From Phytoactinopolyspora alkaliphila (lineage in GTDB: Bacteria > Actinomycetota > Actinomycetes > Jiangellales > Jiangellaceae), in NCBI RefSeq assembly GCF_010550695.1, contig NZ_JAAGOB010000007.1, forward strand, positions 186,001-250,000: a DNA stretch of 64,000 nucleotides, written 5' to 3'. A model generated the notes under the pieces. The model saw only the letters and a list, made by a program, of their open reading frames with translations, did no database searches and had not been told where the DNA came from. Made by a program: the position numbers and the translations under genes. Shown one piece after another: positions 7,576 to 28,380 of the stretch (position 1 is its first letter; every line of letters starts with the position of its first letter).

Positions 7576-8763
7576 ATGACGCGGTTGATCGTCGAGGCCG
7601 ACGGCGGCTCTCGTGGTAATCCTGGCCCCGCCGCGTTCGGCGCGCTGGTGCGCTCCGCCGACACCGGCGAGGTACTGGCCGAGGCCGGCGAGACCATCGG
7701 CGTCGCCACCAACAACGTCGCCGAGTACCGCGGGCTGATCGCCGGCCTGCGGATGGCCCGGCAGATCGATCCGTCCGCCCAGGTGGAAGCCCGCCTGGAC
7801 TCCAAGCTCGTGGTGGAGCAGATGTCCGGCCGCTGGAAGATCAAGCATCCCGGCATGCGCCCGCTGGCGCTGGAAGCACAGCGGATCCTCCCACCCGGTC
7901 AGGTGACGTACACCTGGGTTCCACGGGCTCAGAACGCGCACGCGGACCGGCTGCTGAACGACGCGCTGGACGGCAAGCCGGTCGCGCCGCACGAGGCTGC
8001 CGAGCATCCAGACGACGACGCGCCAGCCCTGCCCACCGAACCCGAGCCGTTCGACGCGAAGACGGAACCCGAGACCGCGACAACGCCGGACACGGTCCCG
8101 CCTCCACATCGGCTCGTCACCTGGTCGCCCGAGCTCGGCCCGCCCACCACCCTGGTGGTGGTCCGGCACGGGCAGACGGCGATGACCCGGGCGCGCGCGT
8201 TCAGCGGGGGTGGCACGGAGGGCCCGCCCCTCGACGAGGTCGGACTGGACCAAGCGCTGCGGGCCGGGACGATGCTGGCCGGGTCGGACGTGATGGCCGA
8301 CGTCGCGCCGGTGGTCGTCGCGTCCCCGATGCTTCGCACCCGGCAGACCGCGGACGCCATCGCCACACAGCTGGGTGTGGAGAAGGTCGGGGTCGACGAC
8401 GAGTGGCGCGAGTGCGAGTTCGGCGCCTGGGACGGGCTGACGCTGGGGGAGATCACTGAGCGCTACCCCGAGGACATCGCGGCGTGGTTCGCGTCGACGT
8501 CGTACCAGATGCCGGGCGGCGAGTCCTTGGACCAGATGACCGCCCGCATCGTCGCGGCCCGCGACCGGACCGTAGAGCTGTACGCCGGCCGGACCGTCGT
8601 CGTGGTGACCCACTCGATGCCGGTCCGCGCGCTGGTCCGGCTCGCGCTGGAGGCGCCGGCGTCGGCGATGTTCAAAGTCCAGCCGGCCCCCGGCTCGGTG
8701 ACCGAGATCCAGCACTACAGCGACGGCACCGTCGCACTGGCCGGATTCAACACGCGGCCCTGA
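7576..8763 (+). CDS. Bifunctional RNase HI / acid phosphatase
   Basis: 395 residues. Residues 1-135 are an RNase H fold: VEADGGSRGNPG holds the first catalytic Asp, NVAEYRGLI the Glu, RLDSKLVVEQM the next Asp, and NAHADRLLNDAL the terminal Asp region. A Pro/Glu/Thr-rich linker of about 55 residues follows. Residues about 190-395 are a histidine phosphatase (phosphoglycerate-mutase) domain with LVVVRHGQTAMT, SPMLRTRQTADAI, ECEFGAWDGLT and VVVVTHSMPVRAL. The two-domain order matches mycobacterial Rv2228c, which degrades RNA-DNA hybrids and carries a CobC-like phosphatase. It is the third gene of a conserved cluster. Confidence 0.93.
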   Translation: MTRLIVEADGGSRGNPGPAAFGALVRSADTGEVLAEAGETIGVATNNVAEYRGLIAGLRMARQIDPSAQVEARLDSKLVVEQMSGRWKIKHPGMRPLALEAQRILPPGQVTYTWVPRAQNAHADRLLNDALDGKPVAPHEAAEHPDDDAPALPTEPEPFDAKTEPETATTPDTVPPPHRLVTWSPELGPPTTLVVVRHGQTAMTRARAFSGGGTEGPPLDEVGLDQALRAGTMLAGSDVMADVAPVVVASPMLRTRQTADAIATQLGVEKVGVDDEWRECEFGAWDGLTLGEITERYPEDIAAWFASTSYQMPGGESLDQMTARIVAARDRTVELYAGRTVVVVTHSMPVRALVRLALEAPASAMFKVQPAPGSVTEIQHYSDGTVALAGFNTRP

Positions 8764-8812: not shown

Positions 8813-11800
8813 ATGCTTGGTACTGCTGCGTCAATGCTCAGGGCCCCGGGCCGCCTCGCTGGCCGGGCCGCTATGGCCGGAGTGTCCGGCGCCGCGTTCG
8901 CCGCGGGTGTCGCGAAGGGCACGGCGACGTCGATCCCGCGCCTGGTATCGCAGTCGATGCACGCCGAGTCCGCCAGCCGGGAGGCCATGGATGCCGGCCG
9001 GGCGCTGACGGATCTGCATCCCAGGAGGCAGCACCGGCGAGTGTGGACAGGTCACGGAAGGGCGCACATCGAGGTCCGTGGCCTCGAGGGTGACCACGGC
9101 CGGCGGCTGGCCGAGCGGGTGCCCGCGGCTCTGCGGCGCGTGCAGGGGGTGCGCTGGGCGCAGATCAACGCGGTGACGGGGCAGGTGCTGGTGGCTTTCG
9201 ACGAGCGCCGGCTCGACGTCGAGACGTTGCTGAACACAGTGCGCGCGGTGGAGGGCGACCAGGGGACCCGGGAGGACGACTTCTCCTGGCGGCGTCCCAC
9301 GCATCCGGGCGACATGACGGCGGTCGTCGCGGTCGCGACCGAGCTCGCCGCCGATTGCGTCGGCAGCTCCGCCGCGCTGGTCCAGTCGGTGCTGCGGTTG
9401 CCGCCGCTGCCGCGCTGGGCGAGGGCGGGGATGGCAACGCTGGAGATCGAACGGGATCTGCGCCGCGGGATCAAGCGCCGGATCGGGCCGATCGAGACCG
9501 ACCTGGTGCTCACGCTGGCCAACGCGGCGGTCCACGGGCTGTCCCAGAGTGTCATGACGCCCGCTGTCGACGCGGTGTACCGCAGCACGCTGCTGGCTGA
9601 GGCATGGTCTCGCCGGCAGGCGTGGATCCGCCGCGAGCCGGAGCTGTCCGGTGCGGAGGATGCCGTGCCATCCGATGCGCCGAGCCCGCCTCCCCGGCCG
9701 GGTCCACGACCGAAGGGGCCTATCGAGGTCTGGAACGATCGGATCGGCCGCGGAGCACCGGCCGCGGCCGCGGGGGTGCTGGCGTTCACCCGGAGTCCCG
9801 GCCGCGCGGCCGACGCCCTGCTGGCCGCCGTGCCCAGGCCGGCCCGCTACGGACGCGAGGGCTTCGCCACCGCGGTCGGCCGGGATCTGGCCCGGCGAGG
9901 CGTGGTGCCGCTCAACGCCGGCGCGTTCCGCCGTCTCGACCGGATCGATGCCGTGATCATCGACTCACGCGTGTTGATCACGGCCGACGGCGAGATCGAC
10001 CCGCTGGCCGACGCCGTCCTCGACGCCGCGAGGTCTACCGGCGCCACCGTCGCGCTGACCAGCCGAGCGGAAGCAGAAGAGCTTCTGCCACGAGTGGACC
10101 ATGTGCTCAACGGCGTGCCACTCGCCGACGAGGTGCGCCGGCAGCAGGGTGACGGACACGGCGTCCTGGTGGTGACCGCGGCGGACGAGAGCGCCCTCGC
10201 GGCCGCGGACGTCGGCGTCGCCGTCACCCGGGGGGAAGGGAACTCCTACTGGTCTGCGGATGTGGTCTGCGGCGAGGACTTGGACGACGTGTGGCGCATT
10301 CTGCGCGCCACCGCGGCGGCGCGCGGGGTGAGCGAGCGAGCCGTGCGCCTGGCTCAGGCCGGCTCGGCGCTGGGCGCCCTGCATGCCCTGGTCGGTGACC
10401 GGCGGCGCGGACTGGCACGTGGCTTCGCCCCGGTTCAGGTGGCGGCGCTGGTGGCCCTGATCAGTGGAACCGTGTCCGGTCTGCGCGCCACCCGTGGCGG
10501 CTCCCCTCGTCCGGTGGTGCACGTCCCGTGGCACGAGCTGCCGGGCACCGACGTCTACACCAGGCTCCGTGCCGGCCGGCCGGGCGGCGGGCAGGACGGG
10601 GCGGGCACCGTTGAACCGCCCAGGCGCGACCGGGCGCGGAGCGACGCGCGGGGCCTTCGTGCGCGACGCTGGGGAGAGCCCGCACGCCTCGCCGGGGCGG
10701 TGTTCCAGGAGCTGCGCGATCCGCTCACCCCGGTGCTCGCGGGTGGAGCCGTGGCGTCGATGATCGTCGGATCCGGCATCGACGGTGTGCTGGTCGGCGC
10801 CGTCATGACGGGTAACGCGCTGATCAGCGGCGTCCAGCGGGTGAGGGTGGAGCGAGCGTTGCGCGGGCTCCTCGCCGAGCAGGAGGTACAGGCCCGCCGC
10901 GTGCTCGTCGAGAGTCTGGACCGGATCGACGACGCGCCCGTGGAGAAGACTCCGGCGCGTGCGTTGATGCCTGGCGACGTGATCGAACTGCGCACGTCCG
11001 ACGTGGTGCCGGCCGACGCGCGGCTGCTGCGGGCAGCGGAGCTCGAGATCGACGAGTCGACATTGACCGGTGAGTCGATGCCGGTGGCCAAGGACACCGA
11101 GCCGACACCTGGGGCGCCACTGGCCGAGCGCACCGGCATGGTGTTCGAGGGAACCACGGTCTTGGCCGGTTCAGCCCACGCCGTCGTCGTGGCGGCCGGC
11201 GCATCCACCGAGGCGGGGCGCGCCGCGCGGATAGCGGGACACGCCCCGCAACCGGTGGGCGTTCAGGGCCGCCTGCACGAGGTGACTCGGGTGGCGCTGC
11301 CGATGACGGCACTGGGCGGGGCTGCGGTGGCCGGCATCGGGTTACTGCGGGGGATGCCGCTGCGCCAGGCGGTCGCCGCGGGCGTGTCGGTGGCCGTGGC
11401 CGCCGTGCCCGAAGGCCTGCCCCTGGTCGCCACGGTGGCGCAGGCCGGGGGAGCGCGCCGGCTGTCCCGGCAGAACACGCTGGTCCGCACGTCCCGGGCG
11501 CTCGAGGCGCTGGGCCGGGTCGATGTGGTGTGCTTCGACAAGACGGGCACGCTCACCGAGGGCCGGCTGAGCCTCACTCGGCTGGCGACGCCGGAGGGCG
11601 ACGTCGAACCCGGCGGAGTCGACGCCGCACGCCTGCTCGCCGCGGCAGCGCGCACCTGCCCGCAGACCGATACGCAAAGCATCGCCAAGCTCGCCCACGC
11701 CACCGACCGCGTGGTGCTGGAAGCCGCCCACGAGGCAGGCGACGTGCACCGGAACGGGTGGCAGCCGGTCACCGAGCTGCCATTCCAGGCTCAGCGCGGC

Positions 11801-13057
11801 TATTCGGCGGCACTCGGGCGGATCGACGGCGGCTCGGTGCTGGTGGTCAAGGGTGCACCGGAGGTGGTGCTGCCGCTGTGTGGCACCGACGCTGGCGCGT
11901 CCGGCAAGGCCGAGCGGCTGGCGGGTGAAGGGCTGCGAGTCCTGGCCGTGGCACAGCGCCGGGACGGCTTGCCCGAAGACACCGACGACCTCGAGCCGCT
12001 CGTCTGCGAACTGGAACTGCTCGGCTTCGTCGGCATCGCCGATTCCGCCCGGCCGGAGGCGCGGGATACGGTCCAGGCGATCACCGGCTCGGGTGTCCGC
12101 GTCGTCATGGTGACCGGCGACCACCCGGAGACCGCACGGGCGACGGCGGCGGCCACGGGCATCGCCAACGGCGCGGTCGTCACCGGTGCCGAGCTGGACC
12201 GGATGAGCGAATCCGAGCGGGCGCGCAAGGTTGCGGAGTCCACGGTCTTCGCGCGGGTCTCGCCTGAGCAGAAGGTGCAGATCGTCGCGGCGTTGCAGCA
12301 GGCCGGCCGCGTCGTCGCCATGATCGGTGACGGTGTCAACGACGCTGCCGCCATCCGGCTCGCCGACGTGGGCATCGGAGTGCGTGCACGGGGGTCGACC
12401 TCGGCGCAGTCCGTGGCCGACCTGGTCCTGCCGGACGCCGACATCACACAGGTCCATGGCGCGCTTCTCGAGGGTCGTGCGCTATGGCGGCGGGTACGTG
12501 ACGCGGTGTCGATCCTGGTGGGCGGCAACGCCGGCGAGGTGGGCTTCATGGTGATCGGCACGGCGCTGGCGGGGCGTGCACCGATCACCACCCGGCAGAT
12601 GCTGCTGGTCAACATGCTCACCGACATGTTCCCCGCGCTGGCTGTGGCGCTGGCCTCCGGCCGGAACGACGAGGACGACGGCAAGCCCGTCGGCGCTATT
12701 CTCGGCAAGCCGCTGGCCAAGGCCGTCGCCGTCCGCGGAGCGGCGACCGCGCTGGGCGCCACGCTGGCCTGGACCGCCGGGCGTTGGACGGGACGCAGAA
12801 GCCGGGCCGGGACGATGGGCCTTGCCGCTCTCGTTGCCACGCAGCTCGCCCAGACCCTGGTGATCGGTCGGCACAGCCGGCTGGTGGTGGTGACGTCGGT
12901 GGCGTCGTTCGCCGCGCTGGTGGCCATCATCCAGACGCCCGGGGTTAGCCAGTTCCTGGGTTGCACGCCGCTCGGACCGATGGCCTGGGGGATGGTGCTC
13001 GCCGCCGCGGCGGCCGGGACCGTCGTCGCCGTGAGGCGGGGGAGTGCGGCGCAGTGA
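8813..13057 (+). CDS. Giant cation-transporting P-type ATPase (CtpI-like) with degenerate N-terminal ATPase domain
   Basis: 1,414 residues, far longer than an ordinary P-type ATPase (650-900). Residues about 84-147 resemble a heavy-metal-associated fold but lack the CxxC. Residues about 371-500 look like a dead P-domain: AFRRLDRIDAVIIDSRVLIT parallels the active ALEALGRVDVVCFDKTGT, and ALTSR and ADVGVAV stand where TGDHPET and ADVGIGV occur. The active copy is C-terminal: TLTGES at 750-755, membrane motif AVPEGLP at 864-870, phosphorylation motif DKTGT at 909, and MIGDGVND near 1,171. The PEGLP signature resembles calcium-type rather than copper-type pumps; the ion is unknown. It sits in the inner membrane. 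M. tuberculosis CtpI/CtpH have a comparable size. It ends 3 nt before the convergent MarR gene. Confidence 0.9.
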   Translation: MLGTAASMLRAPGRLAGRAAMAGVSGAAFAAGVAKGTATSIPRLVSQSMHAESASREAMDAGRALTDLHPRRQHRRVWTGHGRAHIEVRGLEGDHGRRLAERVPAALRRVQGVRWAQINAVTGQVLVAFDERRLDVETLLNTVRAVEGDQGTREDDFSWRRPTHPGDMTAVVAVATELAADCVGSSAALVQSVLRLPPLPRWARAGMATLEIERDLRRGIKRRIGPIETDLVLTLANAAVHGLSQSVMTPAVDAVYRSTLLAEAWSRRQAWIRREPELSGAEDAVPSDAPSPPPRPGPRPKGPIEVWNDRIGRGAPAAAAGVLAFTRSPGRAADALLAAVPRPARYGREGFATAVGRDLARRGVVPLNAGAFRRLDRIDAVIIDSRVLITADGEIDPLADAVLDAARSTGATVALTSRAEAEELLPRVDHVLNGVPLADEVRRQQGDGHGVLVVTAADESALAAADVGVAVTRGEGNSYWSADVVCGEDLDDVWRILRATAAARGVSERAVRLAQAGSALGALHALVGDRRRGLARGFAPVQVAALVALISGTVSGLRATRGGSPRPVVHVPWHELPGTDVYTRLRAGRPGGGQDGAGTVEPPRRDRARSDARGLRARRWGEPARLAGAVFQELRDPLTPVLAGGAVASMIVGSGIDGVLVGAVMTGNALISGVQRVRVERALRGLLAEQEVQARRVLVESLDRIDDAPVEKTPARALMPGDVIELRTSDVVPADARLLRAAELEIDESTLTGESMPVAKDTEPTPGAPLAERTGMVFEGTTVLAGSAHAVVVAAGASTEAGRAARIAGHAPQPVGVQGRLHEVTRVALPMTALGGAAVAGIGLLRGMPLRQAVAAGVSVAVAAVPEGLPLVATVAQAGGARRLSRQNTLVRTSRALEALGRVDVVCFDKTGTLTEGRLSLTRLATPEGDVEPGGVDAARLLAAAARTCPQTDTQSIAKLAHATDRVVLEAAHEAGDVHRNGWQPVTELPFQAQRGYSAALGRIDGGSVLVVKGAPEVVLPLCGTDAGASGKAERLAGEGLRVLAVAQRRDGLPEDTDDLEPLVCELELLGFVGIADSARPEARDTVQAITGSGVRVVMVTGDHPETARATAAATGIANGAVVTGAELDRMSESERARKVAESTVFARVSPEQKVQIVAALQQAGRVVAMIGDGVNDAAAIRLADVGIGVRARGSTSAQSVADLVLPDADITQVHGALLEGRALWRRVRDAVSILVGGNAGEVGFMVIGTALAGRAPITTRQMLLVNMLTDMFPALAVALASGRNDEDDGKPVGAILGKPLAKAVAVRGAATALGATLAWTAGRWTGRRSRAGTMGLAALVATQLAQTLVIGRHSRLVVVTSVASFAALVAIIQTPGVSQFLGCTPLGPMAWGMVLAAAAAGTVVAVRRGSAAQ

Positions 13058-26082: not shown

Positions 26083-28380
26083 ATGACTACTGAGACAGCG
26101 AGCGACGCCGACGGCGCCACGAGTGCCGCCGTCGCCACGTCCCGAGTAGAGCTCGTCATCGGCGGAATGACCTGCGCGTCGTGCGCGGCTCGGATCGAGA
26201 AGAAGCTCAACCGGGTGGACGGGGTGACCGCATCGGTGAACTTCGCCACCGAGAAGGCAAGGGTCGAGTACACCGGCGACATCACCCCGCAGGACTTGGT
26301 CGCGGTGGTGGAGCAGACCGGCTATCAGGCGGAGCTTCCTCCCGAGCCGGACGACTCTCGGCCGGACGCGGGAGAGCCCGCCGCCGAGGACCAGCACGGC
26401 CGGGAGCTGGCGGCACTCAAGAACCGGCTGATCGTCAGCGTGGTCCTCTCGGTACCCGTGATCGCCCTGGCCATGGTCCCGGCCTGGCAGTTCGAGTACT
26501 GGCAGTGGCTGTCCTTCACCCTCGCCGCGCCGGTGGTGGTGTGGGCGGGCCGGCCATTTCACAAGGCAGCGTGGGCCAACCTCAGGCATGGTGCCGCCAC
26601 GATGGACACTCTCATCTCCATGGGTACCAGCGCGGCGTTCCTGTGGTCGGTGTACGCGCTGTTCTTCGGCACGGCGGGCGAGCCGGGGATGTCTCACCCG
26701 TTCGAGCTGACCATCGCCCGGGTGGACGGCTCGTCGCAGATCTATCTCGAAGTCGCTGCGGGGGTGATCACGTTCATCCTCCTGGGGCGATACTTCGAAG
26801 CTCGCTCGAAGCGGCGCGCGGGCGCGGCTCTGCGAGCGCTGATGGAGCTCGGGGCCAAGGAGGTCACTCTGCTCCGCGAGGGGCGCGAGGTGCGTGTCCC
26901 GGCGGCTGAGCTCGCGGTGGGCGACGAGTTCGTTGTCCGGCCTGGGGAGAAGATCGCCACGGACGGCGTCGTCGTCGACGGCTCGTCGGCGGTGGACGAA
27001 AGCATGCTCACCGGTGAGTCGGTGCCGGTGGAGGTAGGCGTCGACGATCGCGTTGTCGGTGCCACGGTCAACGCGGGCGGGCGGCTCGTGGTGCGGGCCA
27101 CGCGCGTCGGCGCAGACACCCAGCTCGCCCAGATGGCCAAGCTCGTCGAAGAGGCGCAGACCGGCAAGGCTGCGGTCCAGCGGCTGGCTGACAGGATCTC
27201 CGCGGTCTTCGTGCCCATCGCCATCGGGATCGCGATCGCCACGCTGGGATTCTGGCTCGGCACCGGTGACCCGCCGGCTGCGGCGTTCACGGCCGCCGTG
27301 GCGGTATTGATCATCGCGTGCCCGTGCGCGCTGGGGCTGGCCACGCCGGTAGCCCTGATGGTGGGCACCGGACGCGGCGCTCAGATGGGCGTGCTGATCA
27401 AGGGCCCCGAGGTGCTGGAGTCCACCCGCCGCGTCGACACCGTGGTGCTGGACAAGACCGGCACCGTCACCACTGGGCAGATGACTCTGGTCGACGTCGT
27501 CGTCGACGAGGGAACCACGGAGGACGAGGCCCTGCGGCTGGCCGGTGCGCTGGAGAACGCGTCCGAGCATCCCATCGCGCAGGCGATCGCCAAGGGCGCG
27601 CAGCAGCGCGTCGGCGAGCTCGCCACGGTGGAGTCGTTCGAGAACGTCGAGGGCCGTGGCGTCCAGGGCATCGTGGATGGGCACGCCGTGGTCGCCGGCC
27701 GGGAGAGCCTGCTCGCGGACTGGTCCCAGCATCTGAGCCCGTCGCTTAAACAGGCCAAGGCGGTGGCCGAGGGCGAAGGTAAGACCGCCGTCGCGGTCGG
27801 CTGGGACGGCGAGGCGCGGGGGATTCTCGTGGTCGCCGACGCGGTGAAGCCCACCAGTAAGGAGGCGATCGCTCAGCTGCGCCGCCTCGGACTGACCCCC
27901 ATCCTGCTCACCGGCGACAACGAGACCGTGGCCCGCACAGTCGCGGCCGAGGTCGGCATCGACGAGGTGTTCGCCGAGGTGCTGCCGAAGGACAAGGTCG
28001 ACGTTGTGCGACGGCTGCAGGACGACGGCAAGGTGGTGGCGATGGTCGGCGACGGCATCAACGATGCCGCCGCGCTCGCGCAGTCCGACCTGGGCCTGGC
28101 GATGGGCACGGGGACCGACGTCGCCATCGAGGCGAGCGATCTGACCCTGGTGCGGGGCGACCTGCGCGCGGCCGCCGACGCTATCCGGCTGTCCCGCAAG
28201 ACCCTCGGCACCATCAAGACCAACCTGATGTGGGCGTTCGGCTACAACACGCTCGCCATCCCGATCGCCGCGGCGGGCCTGCTGAATCCGATGCTGGCCG
28301 GGGCGGCGATGGCCTTCTCGAGCGTGAGCGTCGTGATGAACAGCCTACGGTTGCAGCGGTTCGCCTCGGCCATCGACTAA
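26083..28380 (+). CDS. copA: Copper-exporting P1B-type ATPase
   Basis: 765 residues. An N-terminal metal-binding domain has [16 protein letters not shown] (Cys31, Cys34). Eight membrane helices are expected. TLTGES-type motif [11 protein letters not shown] lies in the actuator domain, [13 protein letters not shown] holds the Cys413-Pro-Cys415 transport site, DKTGTVT has the phosphorylated Asp near 457, [12 protein letters not shown] is the P1B nucleotide-binding HP motif, and [12 protein letters not shown] is the hinge. This set is that of Cu(I) exporters. It moves Cu(I) out of the cytosol and is probably co-transcribed with the exported His-rich protein. Confidence 0.95.

Follow-up and report, generated by a model that had tools for sequence, protein, structure and literature searches.

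The window analysed here is a 64,000-nucleotide stretch of the Phytoactinopolyspora alkaliphila genome (contig NZ_JAAGOB010000007.1, positions 186,001 to 250,000 of the forward strand), and our subject is one gene in it, which spans positions 8813-13057 exactly as an open reading frame on the forward strand and encodes a protein of 1,414 residues. Pfam detects an intact P-type ATPase at residues 701-1405, and the N-terminal half gives only a weak HMA_2 match at residues 82-144. This N-terminal half contains a second, catalytically dead P-domain fold at residues ~370-490, and the reading that we favour is that the dead domain is part of an entire P1B (heavy-metal) ATPase that has degenerated and covers residues ~80-560. 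Judged by its sequence, the product is a member of the FUPA24 family (TC 3.A.3.24), which includes CtpH and CtpI. The following features were assigned to it:

8813-13057, forward strand: whole open reading frame, fused P-type ATPase of the FUPA24 or CtpH-CtpI kind (homologues of 1,395-1,979 residues across many actinobacteria)
9050-9250, forward strand: HMA-like domain lacking the metal-binding CxxC, residues ~80-146 (Pfam HMA_2, E 8e-4; CopZ/CopA HMA profile matches; hhalign to P1B, E 6e-7)
9311-9643, forward strand: helical region of low hydrophobicity in the place of MA/MB/M1/M2, residues 167-277 (AlphaFold; VIA alignment from model residue ~90; hydropathy)
9644-9715, forward strand: short loop of 24 residues in the place of the A domain, residues 278-301 (a coil between two helices in the model)
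9716-9892, forward strand: M3/M4-like helices, residues 302-360 (alignment and conservation; hydropathy of -0.6 to 0.4, with charged residues)
9920-10282, forward strand: pseudo-P-domain, residues 370-490 (DSRVL for DKTGT with D384, TSR for TGD, TAADES for GDGVND; ADVGVAV kept)
9977-9997, forward strand: place of the deleted N domain, residues 389-395 (list of inserts in 38 homologues)
10280-10492, forward strand: pair of M5/M6-like helices that, as in P1B, are the only ones after the P-domain, residues 490-560 (model and hydropathy)
10520-10687, forward strand: disordered linker between the halves, residues 570-625, of low confidence at 591-620 (two-half model)
10700-13036, forward strand: intact cation pump of type II (P2A-like), residues 630-1408 (Pfam PF00122, PF00702 and PF00689; TIGR01522; motif conservation)

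The original prediction of a second, catalytically dead P-domain was based on motifs paired by eye between the two halves, and the pairs are correct and positioned as claimed. LDRIDAVIIDS from residue 375 mirrors LGRVDVVCFDK from residue 900, ALTSR at residues 414-418 is the counterpart of VTGDH at 1100-1104, and ADVGVAV lies at 465-471. The reported loss of Lys-Thr-Gly-Thr and GDGVND is equally apparent, as D384 is followed by SRV in place of KTG and TAADES stands where GDGVND would be. Conservation was assessed in 38 homologues that were gathered without motif selection. None of their N-terminal halves has DKTGT, and the position of D384 is occupied by D in 28, H in 9 and E in 1. In another set this residue was D in 66 of 66 sequences; that set is biased because its search peptide patterns contain the pseudo-active-site aspartate, and it is superseded by the 38 homologues. 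In the C-terminal half, D909, K910, T911, D1103, D1173 and D1177 are each present in 38/38.

When compared as single sequences the two P-domains are only weakly alike, with a non-significant BLASTP E value of 0.059, and the N-terminal half matches the ordinary P1B pump encoded in the same window with E 0.003. As Pfam returned no match for the pseudo-P region alone, profile and structure comparisons were needed. A family profile of the pseudo-P-domain scored 101 against P1B pumps (E 3e-13), 54 against the C-terminal half of its own family (E 2e-6) and 38 against P2A pumps, while column-shuffled controls reached at most 19 and 25. An AlphaFold model of residues 76-570, built with 59 homologues, had a mean predicted local distance difference test score (pLDDT) of 89.4 and a predicted template modelling score (pTM) of 0.88, and residues 370-500 adopt the haloacid dehalogenase-type P-domain fold in it. 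A fold search with this model retrieved P-type ATPases with ATP7B, CopA and ZntA at the top, and the crystal structure of the isolated CopA P/N-domain (3a1d) was matched over 112 columns at 26% identity. These data confirm that a second P-domain fold is present and catalytically dead.

The remainder of the N-terminal half has also lost the parts that a heavy-metal pump needs. No CxxC was found in any of the 38 N-terminal halves (0/38). The A domain is absent, as there is no GD..P.D or TGES motif in this half and the hhalign alignment to P1B places a gap over that domain. The CPC ion site of P1B pumps reads VPRPAR, and the 38 homologues carry P-K/R-A/P instead of a CPx metal site, with P341 conserved in 37/38. 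At the place of the N domain many homologues have inserts of ~60-105 residues, and this remnant is gone in Phytoactinopolyspora and several others, including most Streptomyces-type sequences; since some relatives keep the remnant and others do not, the loss was stepwise. By a simple hydropathy cut-off the N-terminal halves have 0-3 candidate membrane segments per protein, compared with 4-9 in P1B pumps. We are highly confident in the overall architecture of the fused protein as laid out here.

The C-terminal half carries a full set of motifs, namely TGES, PEGLP, DKTGTLT, KGAPE, TGD and GDGVND, together with N, E, N, T and D in M5/M6. The PEG motif and the M5/M6 cation residues are found in 38/38 homologues, and L869 is conserved in 34/38 with M in the other 4 (PEGM). 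Its best NCBIfam model is TIGR01522 (PMR1-type Ca ATPase) at 356.7 bits, which is under the cut-off of 798.3. This half is probably a Ca2+ or Mn2+ pump.

Chan et al., in an abstract of 2010, reportedly described FUPA family 24 as the joining of two ATPase genes, one of type I and one of type II, with function kept only by the type II part. With 1,414 residues the protein studied here is about twice as long as is normal; a large N-terminal segment precedes the pump, which begins near residue 630. DKTGT, TGES and GDGVND are confined to residues 752-1177 and the N-terminal half has none of them. A type I origin of the N-terminal half is indicated by profile, PDB and fold comparisons, with a tree that is supportive but not decisive. 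Full-length homologues in Mycolicibacter genomes (L153, L189) stood in for Mycobacterium tuberculosis CtpH and CtpI in the comparison, and the PEGM and DKTGTLS variants reported for CtpH (PMC3573892) are present in the mycobacterial members of our family set. Going by the description of Chan et al., the basic architecture of a dead P1B half joined to a working pump is not new, and the protein adds one member to a recognised family. The transmembrane segments of CtpH and CtpI have been described as unclear (PMC3573892). CtpH of M. tuberculosis has been reported to take part in Ca2+ pumping (PMC9180918). A 2023 review sets CtpH and CtpI apart as an isolated group that is uncharacterised, and calls open both what they transport and whether they work as pumps (PMC10654040).

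Of 396 genomes in a sample spanning the phylum, 44 gave a match to the N-terminal half, a few of the weakest of them being to HMA domains that belong to ordinary pumps. Among 199 Streptomyces genomes, 72 have it. Four of five Phytoactinopolyspora genomes have it and none of 15 other sampled genomes of the family do; the nearest named locus is that of P. halotolerans (66% identity). A plasmid search gave a single remote match. Some loci depart from the usual arrangement or range. In a Streptomyces genome (L256, reverse strand) the two halves lie in two adjoining frames, either through a frameshift or because the gene is split into a pair. A sister Phytoactinopolyspora species (L046, genome G015) has its orthologue broken across three frames, by an assembly fault or as a pseudogene. 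FUPA24-like genes also occur outside Actinomycetota in two Balneolales metagenome-assembled genomes (L179, L186), through transfer or mis-binning.

The dead half also occurs on its own. Stand-alone genes were found in two Streptomyces genomes, one of them that of Streptomyces sp. TP-A0356, in Microbispora siamensis, in a Pseudonocardia metagenome-assembled genome and in Halosaccharopolyspora lacisalsi. The loci and the positions of the genes in them are:

5395-7545 of L115: stand-alone dead-half gene
5647-7716 of L116: stand-alone dead-half gene
5578-7722 of L145: stand-alone dead-half gene
5869-7530 of L169: stand-alone dead-half gene
1411-3933 of L258: stand-alone dead-half gene

These genes stop just past the M6-like helix and have no catalytic half within several kilobases. 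Four of the five genomes were searched whole and contain fused copies as well, and the second Streptomyces genome also shows frames of fused length.

The origin of the N-terminal half was examined with a profile of its full length. Its alignment to P1B pumps was collinear, spanned 492 columns and included the HMA domain (E 1.7e-14); that to the C-terminal half of its own family spanned 254 columns confined to the P-domain region. Against PDB sequences (E 1) it matched copper and zinc P1B pumps, HMA/CopZ domains and a few unrelated weak entries, and it matched no SERCA-type chain although many are present there. Structural alignment with VIA gave Z 18.3 for P1B structures and ~15.5 for the best SERCA entries. 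In a tree of P-domains the N-terminal halves form one group (100/99) that lies beside P1B (89/97). The explanation that we propose is a fusion. The ancestor of the N-terminal ~570 residues would be a heavy-metal ATPase of type I (P1B) that shed its A domain, N domain, all catalytic motifs and metal site, and whose membrane helices lost much of their hydrophobicity, while the fold was retained. The C-terminal ~780 residues would be a type II pump (P2A-like, probably for Ca2+ or Mn2+) that is complete and carries out ATP-driven transport. The dead half would then be a non-catalytic partner built into the protein, with a regulatory or stabilising effect, which may pack against the working pump. 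As a whole we consider this explanation likely.

Several observations weigh against it. The Z scores for P1B structures lie close to those for other P-type pumps (18 versus 15-17), so that structure alone is indecisive on ancestry. An approximately unbiased test did not reject a grouping of the dead domain with the C-terminal half (p 0.23), and long branches meet in the P-domain tree. A profile of the putative membrane-helix regions alone (MID3; M56) matched nothing significant. The packing of the halves is no more than a hint, judged by pTM alone with no inter-domain error map: a two-half model of residues 165-1364 had a pTM of 0.79, which is above expectation for independently placed halves and in itself speaks for the partner reading. 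Lastly, the stand-alone genes imply that the dead half need not act on a fused pump. The original prediction had attributed the second P-domain to an ancient duplication, which would make the N-terminal half a degenerate copy of the same type II pump. A P-domain is indeed present in both halves with motif positions that resemble each other pairwise, and the tree leaves this grouping standing. Duplication is nonetheless not the best reading, as the N-terminal half has an HMA-like domain and a two-helix C-terminal end, its profile score against P1B is about twice that against the C-terminal half and is collinear over its entire length, and its PDB matches include P1B chains and not a single type II pump. 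We therefore regard duplication as quite improbable and favour fusion on the collinear P1B profile match and the PDB matches, despite the outcome of the tree test; descent of the N-terminal half from a P1B pump is very probable.

What the dead half does is less clear-cut. Between two Phytoactinopolyspora species the ratio of nonsynonymous to synonymous substitution rates (dN/dS, Nei-Gojobori) is ~0.35 for the N-terminal half and 0.24 for the C-terminal half, and 28 N-terminal columns are at least 90% identical across the phylum. One of these columns is W480, which is not shared by P1B pumps and is conserved in 35/38. Distances in the two halves are correlated (Mantel r 0.91), as they should be if a single, old fusion was passed on as a whole. 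The suggestion that the N-terminal half was kept for regulation is plausible because this half is conserved, under constraint and co-diverging with the pump, and the heterodimer-like fold suggested along with it is possible on the two-half model. A regulatory or scaffold role can be proposed tentatively, at somewhat under an even chance. It seems rather unlikely that the dead half serves only structure or membrane assembly, as a scaffold without regulatory function: a fold that outlasted the erosion of the active site, the metal site and the hydrophobicity of the membrane helices would suit such a scaffold, as would distances that co-vary with the pump, but residues foreign to P1B at their positions, such as W480, are conserved and N-terminal halves exist with no adjoining pump. 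Those stand-alone genes, in genomes that have fused copies too, suit a half that acts in trans, for example on other P-type pumps or as an independent sensor, with fusion as only one arrangement. Two Streptomyces stand-alone copies are 75% identical with a dN/dS of ~0.36, a value based on few, saturating comparisons; the majority of members are fused and the stand-alone copies may be truncated relics, and we consider action in trans improbable. A slowly decaying neutral relic would account for the faster divergence of the N-terminal half (mean distance 0.64, versus 0.49 for the C-terminal half) and for the stepwise loss of the N domain. The conserved columns, the dN/dS of the N-terminal half and its confidently predicted fold make this very improbable.

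Around the gene, the product of the upstream neighbour at 7576-8763 joins an RNase H-like domain to a histidine phosphatase domain. The window also encodes a complete and ordinary heavy-metal ATPase of the P1B type (765 residues; TIGR01525, 611 bits), ~13 kb downstream at 26083-28380, which served as the control in our comparisons. A search for conserved neighbour genes gave no clear family, as the crude clusters of open reading frames were dominated by antisense frames.

Two M. tuberculosis pumps fall in FUPA24, and if the long segment at their N terminus is an entire, dead P1B pump, this provides clear domain borders for constructs. The dead P1B half also raises a testable question about pseudo-pumps among P-type ATPases. 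The stand-alone dead halves, the stepwise loss of the N domain and the conserved non-catalytic residues are possibly new, and we met no description of stand-alone halves. A more speculative and on balance unlikely proposal is that actinobacteria use degenerate P1B pseudo-pumps as functional modules without catalysis, fused to a Ca2+-type pump in FUPA24 or acting in trans when stand-alone, and that these form a pseudoenzyme class of P-type ATPases. If so, the P-type fold persists in pseudo-pumps that have lost phosphorylation, the binding of ATP and of metal, and much of their membrane hydrophobicity.

Among known systems, the N-terminal half shares with the P1B ATPases CopA, ZntA and ATP7B its fold and the order of HMA domain, helices, P-domain and two last helices. 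Unlike working P1B pumps it has no A domain, N domain, CPC, CxxC, DKTGT or GDGxND, and its helices are far less hydrophobic. The C-terminal half has all the motifs and the M4/M5/M6 cation-site residues of the P2A Ca2+ ATPases (PMR1/SPCA, LMCA1, SERCA), although it scores under the curated cut-offs of these subfamilies, and we know of no P1B half as part of any of them. Many FUPA24 relatives retain 60-105 residues of the N domain in their dead half, whereas the protein of this window has no such remnant. With CtpH (Rv0425c) and CtpI (Rv0107c) of M. tuberculosis it shares the twofold length, the large N-terminal segment and the restriction of functional motifs to the C-terminal part (PMC3573892).

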